Below are positions 41,722-59,681 of a DNA stretch of 64,000 nt, piece by piece. The stretch spans positions 62,001-126,000 of the forward strand of contig NZ_LQPT01000099.1 of NCBI RefSeq assembly GCF_002102355.1, given 5' to 3'. Made by a program: the position numbers and the translations under genes. The notes beneath the pieces were generated by a model that saw nothing but the letters and a program-made list of their open reading frames with translations, was not told the DNA's origin and did no database searches. Source of the DNA: Mycobacterium sherrisii. Lineage in GTDB: Bacteria; Actinomycetota; Actinomycetes; Mycobacteriales; Mycobacteriaceae. Within the stretch, counting starts at the first letter, position 1; each line of letters opens with the position of its first letter.

Positions 41722-44700
41722 CTAGAGCAGTCCCACCAGCTGCAGATCGGTCACGTACTTGATGATGACCGGTGCCGTGATGTGCGGGATGTCGTTGTCC
41801 GGCCCAATCTTGGCTTCCTGCACCGCGGCCCGGAAGCGGTCGGTCGGCGCGAACGACCCGCGTGTCGGTTCCAGCGGCTGGATCTGGTCCGGGTTGTGCA
41901 ACAGCAGCTGCAGCATCTGCAGCACCGAGTGCTGACGCTGCCGATCCGGCAGAGCCCGAAGCTTGGCCTCGAACTGCCGCACCCATTCCCCGAAGTCGTC
42001 GATCCGCTCGATCGGATACCCGGCCTCGATCAACCAGTCGACGTACGTGTCGATTCCGATCCCGTCGTCGTGCGGGTTCATCACGTGGTAGGTCTCGAAG
42101 CCGTCGACCACTTGAGCACCCAGCGTGGCGATCGCCTCGGCGACAAATTCGACCGGCAGCCCGTCAAAGTGGGCGCGTTGCCGGTTTCCGTTGGCGTCAC
42201 GCTGATAGAACGAGCCGGGCGCGACGCCGGTGGCCACCAGGCTCAGGATCATCCGGGTGACCACGTCGGTCACGTTGAACTGGCCGGCATAGCTGGTGTC
42301 GGACAGGATCATGTCGCTGCGGAACACCGAAACCGGAAGCCCGAACTGCTCGTTGGCCTCCCGCAGCAGCACCTCGCCGGCCCACTTGCTGTTGCCGTAG
42401 CCGTTGGCGTAGCTGCCGTCGAGGACCCGGGTGGGGCTGATGACCCGGATGTCGGCGTCCTCGGTGAACAACGACGGCTCGATCTGGCGACCGAGGTCCG
42501 ACGTCGACACGTAGGCGTACGGCTTGATCCGGGTGGTCAGCGCGAACTTGATCAGCTCGGCGGTACCAACGACGTTGGGGCCGAACAGTTCTCGGTACGG
42601 CAGCACACCGTTGACCACCGCGGCAGAGTCGACGATCAGATCGACGGACTCGGCCAGCCGCTGCCAGGTCTGCTCGTCGAGGCCCAGGTGAGCCTCGCCC
42701 TTGTCGCCGGCGACGACCTCGAGGTGATCGGCGGCCAACTGGTGGAAATGCTCCACCAGCCGCGGGTCACCGGAGTCGAAGGTCTTCTCCAAACGCCGCC
42801 AGGCCTCTTCGTCGGAGCCGGCGCGCACCAGGCAGATCAGTTTGCCCTCGACACGCTTGAGCTGCTTGAGCCACTCCAGGGCCAGGTAACGGCCCAAGAA
42901 ACCGGTCGCCCCGGTCAGCAGCACCGTGCGGGCCTCGGCGCTCGGCCCCGGCAAGGTCGGGGCGGTGATCAGCGTGGTCTCGTCGATGAACTTGTCCAGG
43001 GTGAGGTCACTGGCGCGGAGTCCGGTCGTGTCACGGCCGTGCACGAAGGCGTAGCTGGGCCCGTGCGAATCGGCATCGTCCGCGTCGGTGTCGTGGTCCA
43101 GCCGATGGCTGACGCTGCGCACCGACGGCGCCTCGAACAGCGTGCGGACCGACAGGTTGGAATCGAACGCGGTGTTGATCGCCGCGACCACCCGCATCGC
43201 CGACAGCGAGTCACCGCCCAGGTCGAAGAAGGAGTTCTCCACCCCGACTCGCTCCAGCCCCAAAACCTGGCCGTAGATGCCGGCCACGATCTCCTCGGTG
43301 GGGGTTTCCGGCGGGGAGTAGCGGACCGCGTTCTGGTATTCGGGTGCGGGCAGGGCGCGTTTGTCGAGTTTGCCGTTGACCGTGCGGGGCAGCGTGTCGA
43401 GCACGACGATCGCCGCCGGGACCATGTAGGGCGGCAGGCCCTCGCCCAGCGCGCTGCGCAGCTGCGCCGTGTCGACGTCGCCGGTGACGGTGACGTAACC
43501 GACCAGCCGCTTGTCGCCGGGACGATCCTCGCGGGCGACCACCGCCGCGGCCTGCACACCCTCCAGCGCGGCCAACGCCGCCTGAACCTCACCCAACTCG
43601 ATGCGGTAACCACGAATCTTGACCTGCTCATCGGCGCGGCCCAGATACTGCAACTGCCCGTCCGAACCCCAGCGCACCAAGTCCCCGGTGCGATACATCC
43701 GATCCCCGGGCGCACCGAACGGACACGCCACGAACCGCGACGCGCTCAGCCCGGGCCGACGCATATAGCCGACCGCGACTCCCCGTCCGGCGATGTACAA
43801 CTCGCCGACCACGCCTTCCGGCGCCGGCCGCAACCATTTGTCGAGCACGAACAGCGCCGCTCCGGGCACCGGCACGCCGATCGGTGCGCCGCCGCCGGCC
43901 TTCATCGGTGCGCTGATCGCGGCATAGATGGTGGCCTCGGTCGGGCCGTAGGCGTTGATCATCACCCGCCCCGGCGCCCACTTGTCCACGATTTCGTTCG
44001 GCGAGGCCTCGCCCGCCATCACCAGGGTCACCGATTCCAGGCCCTCGGGCGGCATCATCGCCAGCGCCGAAGGGGTTTGGCCCACCACCGTCACCTGCTC
44101 GGCGACCAGCAGGTCACGCAGCTCGGGTGCGGACGCCGCCGCCGACTCGGGCACCACGACCAGGCGGGAGCCGTGCAGCAGGGCGCTGAAGATTTCCCAC
44201 ACCGACACATCGAAGCTGTACGAATGCCATTGCGACCACACCTGTTCCGGGCCGGTGGGCGCGTTGGGGTCGGGCGACTCCAATAGCGACGTCGCGTTGT
44301 GATGGGTGATCGCAACACCTTTGGGCACCCCGGTGGTGCCCGAGGTGTAGATCATGTACGCCAGGTCCTCCGGTGCCGCCACCGGCAGGGTGACGTCCGC
44401 CGGGTTGGGCAGCTCGGGGTCGTCGACGTCGATGACGGCCAGGGTGGCGCCGTCGAACCGGGACCGCATCGTCGCGTTGGTCATCGCGGCGACCGGGGTG
44501 GCGTCGTCGAGCATGAACTCAAGTCGCGCGTCGGGCATTGCCGGGTCGATCGGCAGATACGCCGCCCCGGACTTCAGCACGGCGACCATGGCGACGATGG
44601 CCTCGGCCGAGCGGTTGAACAGCAGTGCCACGCACTCGCCCGGGCCGGCGCCGTGGCCGACCAGGACCCGGGCCAACCGTTCGGCGGCGTCGTCGAGCTC

Positions 44701-59681: not shown

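Follow-up and report, generated by a model that had tools for sequence, protein, structure and literature searches.

A probable Mps1/Mps2 glycopeptidolipid synthetase from an M. simiae-group mycobacterium

Two adjacent nonribosomal peptide synthetase (NRPS) genes of Mycobacterium sherrisii raise the question of whether a four-module assembly line can be recognized as the Mps1/Mps2 synthetase of the glycopeptidolipid (GPL) core, and by which of its features. GPLs are lipids found at the surface in many mycobacteria. They lie in a 64,000-nucleotide stretch (the window, positions 62,001 to 126,000) of contig NZ_LQPT01000099.1, here C99, in a Mycobacterium genome of 5.56 Mb and 128 contigs. A first-pass annotation took the module number, epimerase positions and mode of release as an exact match to the synthetase of acyl-D-Phe-D-alloThr-D-Ala-L-alaninol. 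We hold with good confidence that the two genes are indeed the Mps1/Mps2 synthetase of the GPL core, with a Phe/Thr/Ala/Ala core. The GPL-type reading is supported by the set of adenylation codes, a gplH gene beside mps1, transporter and sugar genes, a lipid block on contig C101, and the GPLs published for the species group; the layout match fails as proof, because a locus of M. numidiamassiliense (L144) has the same layout and other codes, and a GPL synthetase therefore cannot be recognized from its domain layout alone. This is an ordinary GPL-type synthetase from a species group already reported as GPL producers – useful for annotation and not a new system – and it shows that the M. simiae group has a complete line whose codes are conserved, consistent with published thin-layer chromatography (TLC).

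The domain order given in the first-pass annotation was borne out by Pfam, NCBIfam, motifs and a tree: C-A-T-E-C-A-T-E-C for Mps1 and A-T-E-C-A-T-R for Mps2 (C, condensation; A, adenylation; T, carrier; E, epimerase; R, reductase), with three E domains and a terminal reductase. The mps2 start codon overlaps the mps1 stop codon, and the two adjacent genes, four modules and gene split between C3 and A3 are the arrangement of a GPL synthetase. Pfam finds five Condensation, two AMP-binding and two PP-binding stretches in the mps1 product, and two of each in the mps2 product together with NAD_binding_4; NCBIfam adds the terminal reductase expected of such a line, a thioester reductase domain (TIGR01746, E 4.5e-96) at the Mps2 C-terminus, with no GPL-specific model among the best 25 families listed. 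E and C domains, which share a single Pfam family, were separated by motifs and tree, and domain order was taken from Pfam, NCBIfam and motif anchors. Each of the three E domains has the motif set HHLAVDGVS / EGHGR / RTVGWFT / IGFNYLG, all four carrier domains have GGDS, and the reductase has TGATGFLG and YGNSKW. In a C/E domain tree of eight sources the three E domains fall inside the E clade and C1 joins a clade of starter-type, N-terminal C domains (support 1.0 in both cases); the grouping of C2-C4 with the remaining HHIVxDGWS-type C domains has a support of just 0.60. Tree and motifs thus agree on epimerases in modules 1-3 and none in module 4, which is the GPL synthetase pattern. Reading frames and E-values of such size are not chance. 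An alternative mps1 start, the ATG at 59681, is the end coordinate used in the first-pass annotation.

Nine-letter pocket codes were read against a GrsA fragment rather than with a trained predictor. The A1 code, DFWTVAGVC, shares five of nine letters with that of GrsA (Phe, DAWTIAAIC), and A2, DYWSVGMVH, shares six of nine with the Thr code DFWNIGMVH; these resemblances point to Phe and Thr as the probable substrates of modules 1 and 2, and Ala is assigned to modules 3 and 4 by orthology rather than by prediction. Nothing clearly other than the proposed Phe/Thr/Ala/Ala was found. The comparison drew on 20 stretches from 16 of 21 genomes; M. tilburgii (L147) yielded no line, and M. vulneris only mps1. 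Complete four-code GPL-type lines were read in 13 genomes: the window and three more of the M. simiae group, six of what we take to be the M. avium group, and M. barrassiae, M. lehmannii and M. frederiksbergense. Lines of non-GPL type by layout or codes (L136, L139/L140, L144, L146 and the genome's own C82/C112 line) were omitted from the counts. Across the 13 lines the codes are alike module by module: A2 is D[FY]WSVGMVH in 15/15 (the 13 lines, M. genavense and M. vulneris), A3 is DVW[CS][FVI]AA[IV]Y in 13/13, and A1 is DFW[TS]VA[AG]VC in both slow-grower groups (M. simiae and M. avium). The A1 codes of M. barrassiae, M. lehmannii and M. frederiksbergense are DAWTAVGVC, DAWTVVGMV and DAWTVAAIC, the last of these one letter off the GrsA code and DAWTVVGMV five. 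A4 is DVWGVAAIY in five M. simiae-group lines, DVHSVAAVY in six M. avium-group lines and DVWYVAAIY in the three others. No published A-domain codes for Mps were noticed in a literature search in which, passages of PMC3537567 apart, the texts themselves were not searched for codes.

The neighbouring genes resemble those of a GPL cluster. gplH lies directly upstream of mps1 (the only other PF03621 match in the genome is on contig C101). According to PMC3537567, an mbtH-like gplH stands upstream of mps1 in all the GPL clusters of which its authors knew, and M. smegmatis needs it. Divergent from gplH are mmpS- and mmpL-like genes, followed beyond the window by a DrrA-like ABC set, genes of epimerase and GDP-mannose dehydratase type, a cytidylyltransferase and an NAD-dependent epimerase. 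Glycosyltransferases there comprise three of family 2 and four of EryCIII type, and four methyltransferases match TylF, two strongly and two with E near 1e-10. These transporter, sugar and methyl genes span about 37 kb upstream of the synthetase, to about window coordinate 96,700, the content expected of a GPL locus. On contig C101, genes for a 3633-aa Pks, a protein of condensation fold assigned as PapA, an MmpL, a PE-PPE protein and a FAAL-like protein are clustered, an arrangement like the lipid block that PMC1885439 describes apart from the synthetase in M. abscessus. The Pks/FAAL/PapA set would supply a long 3-hydroxyacyl chain, which the starter C domain would put onto Phe; GplH would aid adenylation, MmpS/MmpL would export the lipid, and the glycosyltransferases and methyltransferases encoded beyond the window would decorate it. 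Architecture, motifs, codes and neighbouring genes are observed directly; the substrates, the chemistry, the export and the production are inferred.

On the 3′ side the synthetase is followed by a CMD-family gene, a gene which we take to be Rv1533-like, and ileS, an order common to M. genavense, M. triplex, M. montefiorense, M. ahvazicum and M. lepraemurium; at the M. tilburgii locus only ileS of the three matched. The source of the window belongs to the M. simiae group, because its nearest reductase domains among the matches listed (best 78 loci of 557 relatives, in which records very near the window's genome are possibly absent) are those of M. tilburgii, M. genavense and M. triplex, at 94%, 92% and 92% (amino acids); in ileS DNA these three are 88.7%, 87.7% and 87.3% identical to the window. 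Published abstracts assign M. tilburgii and M. ahvazicum to the M. simiae complex.

The complete lines of M. triplex, M. montefiorense and M. ahvazicum are 87.7-89.5% identical to the window (Mps1 87.7-88.2%, Mps2 88.8-89.5%), and with M. genavense, whose line is split in its assembly, they share the ileS-side flank and have an identical nine-letter code at each module read. A natural three-module GPL synthetase in M. genavense, where a fused 4489-aa frame lacks module 3 (junction inside E2/E3), was considered and rejected; loss of the module is far likelier an assembly collapse, because a separate small contig of 3381 bases holds an A3 whose code, DVWCFAAIY, is the one expected (L129 and L162). 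Identity to M. avium-group relatives is 72.3-73.5% for Mps1 and 73.1-75.5% for Mps2, and to the orthologues of M. barrassiae, M. lehmannii and M. frederiksbergense 69.3-71.6%. The comparison envisaged with M. avium was made instead with M. scrofulaceum (L137), M. lepraemurium (L134), M. colombiense (L135) and others. These three share the gene split and domain order and have similar codes, and M. lepraemurium also shares the CMD-ileS flank, but they differ from the window in sequence (72.3-75.2% identity), in A1 (AGVC in the window, AAVC in theirs) and in A4 (DVWGVAAIY against DVHSVAAVY). M. smegmatis and M. abscessus Mps1/Mps2, whose link to GPLs is experimental according to the papers, are compared here by published description: the order gplH-mps1-mps2 is shared, and in M. 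abscessus, as here, the lipid block is separate from the synthetase, whereas gap follows mps2 in both species and not in the window.

The species group is already known for GPLs: PMC11549994 reports them by TLC in 10/15 nontuberculous mycobacterial strains, including M. simiae, M. genavense and M. lentiflavum, and PMC12722247 cites GPLs of M. habana. The first-pass annotation had expected the species to make GPLs or a close lipopeptide; genes predict GPL capacity, not production.

Several observations weigh against a GPL synthetase with this core. The layout together with about 70% identity also fits a paralogue with other codes: L144 has an identical domain layout at 70.0/69.5% identity (Mps1/Mps2), about as close to the window as the orthologues of M. 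barrassiae, M. lehmannii and M. frederiksbergense, with the codes DVWGMAAVY / DFWSVGMVH / DYWSVAGVY / DIWCLGEMW. The window A4 differs from the first of these at just two of nine positions, and an A-domain tree puts L144 A1 and A4 beside the window A3/A4 (support 0.858), a placement that speaks for mixing among these modules. Other first codes are also found in M. numidiamassiliense L163 and M. ahvazicum L164, of which the mps1-type genes alone were read, and the second module is Thr-type in 3/3 paralogues (L144, L163, L164). That the window genes are such a paralogue, a four-module lipopeptide synthetase with this layout but distinct from the GPL one, is nevertheless improbable: save at the shared Thr position, their codes match the M. 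avium-group line more closely than L144 in each module, gplH adjoins mps1, and M. ahvazicum holds an orthologue of the window (L132) besides its paralogue.

Further points concern the neighbourhood and the literature. The gap gene is absent next to mps2, where the CMD-family gene lies, and PF11139 matches occur on other contigs only; M. lepraemurium has no room for gap there either, and we do not count gap after mps2, which is the M. smegmatis / M. abscessus arrangement, as defining. The C101 block also has no gap-like gene, and it is supportive and not specific, because M. tuberculosis uses a similar block for its polyacyltrehaloses. PMC11549994 reports an M. scrofulaceum and an M. chelonae isolate as GPL-negative by TLC, although the genome of M. 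scrofulaceum DSM 43992 carries a GPL-type line and PMC1885439 reports GPLs in M. chelonae. The M. smegmatis primer given in PMC3537567, used to look for an experimentally proven Mps sequence, matched 0/396 genomes taken from a larger genus.

Confidence in the exact core is reduced because the window A4 is three of nine positions off the M. avium-group code, and Ala at modules 3 and 4 is an orthology call because the A4 code varies by group. This variation, with Ala resting on orthology, would suit a GPL synthetase of variant core with a non-Ala residue at module 3 or 4, which we consider unlikely, since A3 codes are near constant (13/13) and A3 resembles A4 within both slow-grower groups, as expected for one shared substrate. 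A quick tree was built from 13 A3, 10 A4 and 3 A1 rows, the A4 domains of M. lepraemurium, M. colombiense and M. arosiense not being among them. In it, grouping follows lineage for A3 and A4 of the M. simiae group (support 96) and for those of the M. avium group (93), which is not the case for M. barrassiae, M. lehmannii or M. frederiksbergense. Forcing all A3 together, a test prompted by the earlier A-domain tree with the A3 set defined by module position, costs 39.3 log units (p-AU 0.0019). Four of the five exact repeats of at least 40 bases in the window run between A3 and A4, the longest being 123 bases. Lineage grouping and repeats suggest gene conversion, with repeated duplication as the alternative, and we see about even chances that the Mps2 A3 and A4 are not independent, such that conversion or duplication may hold both to one amino acid, modules 3 and 4 changing as a pair. 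Concerted evolution in assembly lines is reportedly the subject of two papers (PMC4256081, PMC9205934). As a separate observation, the three E-domain regions of Mps1/Mps2 in M. lepraemurium L134 are 100% identical, with exact repeats of 2227-2356 bases, reflecting either recent gene conversion or an assembly artefact.

Table 1. Features of the synthetase locus in window coordinates. Domain bounds are approximate (for R, the upper bound).
Feature	Position	Strand	Remarks
R, terminal thioester reductase	41722-42945	-	TGATGFLG, YGNSKW
mps2-type NRPS	41722-49392	-	2556 aa; rest of module 3, module 4, reductase
A4	43365-44775	-	DVWGVAAIY; Ala by orthology
E3 epimerase domain	46185-47505	-	tree, motifs
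A3	47848-49263	-	DVWCFAAIY; Ala by orthology
mps1-type NRPS	49392-59702	-	3436 aa from GTG at 59702; modules 1-2 and C of module 3
E2 epimerase domain	50699-52109	-	tree, motifs
A2	52349-53804	-	DYWSVGMVH; Thr-like
E1 epimerase domain	55229-56639	-	tree, motifs
A1	56849-58289	-	DFWTVAGVC; Phe-like
C1, starter-type condensation domain	58379-59684	-	HHIAVDGMG
gplH, MbtH-like	59726-59956	-	GTG at 59956 taken as start (VSTNPFDDDNG); PF03621, E 3.5e-30
mmpS-like membrane protein	60750-61343	+	divergent from gplH; PF05423, E 6.1e-67
mmpL-like transporter 1 of 2	61340-64000	+	extends beyond window; PF03176
mmpL-like transporter 2	64245-67181		beyond window

M. colombiense GF76 (L136) and M. parascrofulaceum (L139/L140) have larger lines next to their GPL-type line, which brings to mind a lipopentapeptide-type synthetase as in M. 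avium subsp. paratuberculosis. Set against the lipopentapeptide structure of that organism, the module number and codes of the window differ, and the genome has another large line of its own, truncated where contigs C82 and C112 end; we regard this identity for the window genes as extremely unlikely.

Some minor features of the genome were also noted. SDR, 2-hydroxyacid dehydrogenase and cytidylyltransferase genes at window coordinates 75407-77729 (L087:13407-15729) hint at an unusual sugar. The other large NRPS, on contigs C112 (L091) and C82 (L092), is cut by two contig ends, and a 10249-aa frame in M. triplex may be its whole form. On contig C33 (L159:2170-12086) a formyltransferase gene directly precedes a two-module NRPS with a terminal reductase.
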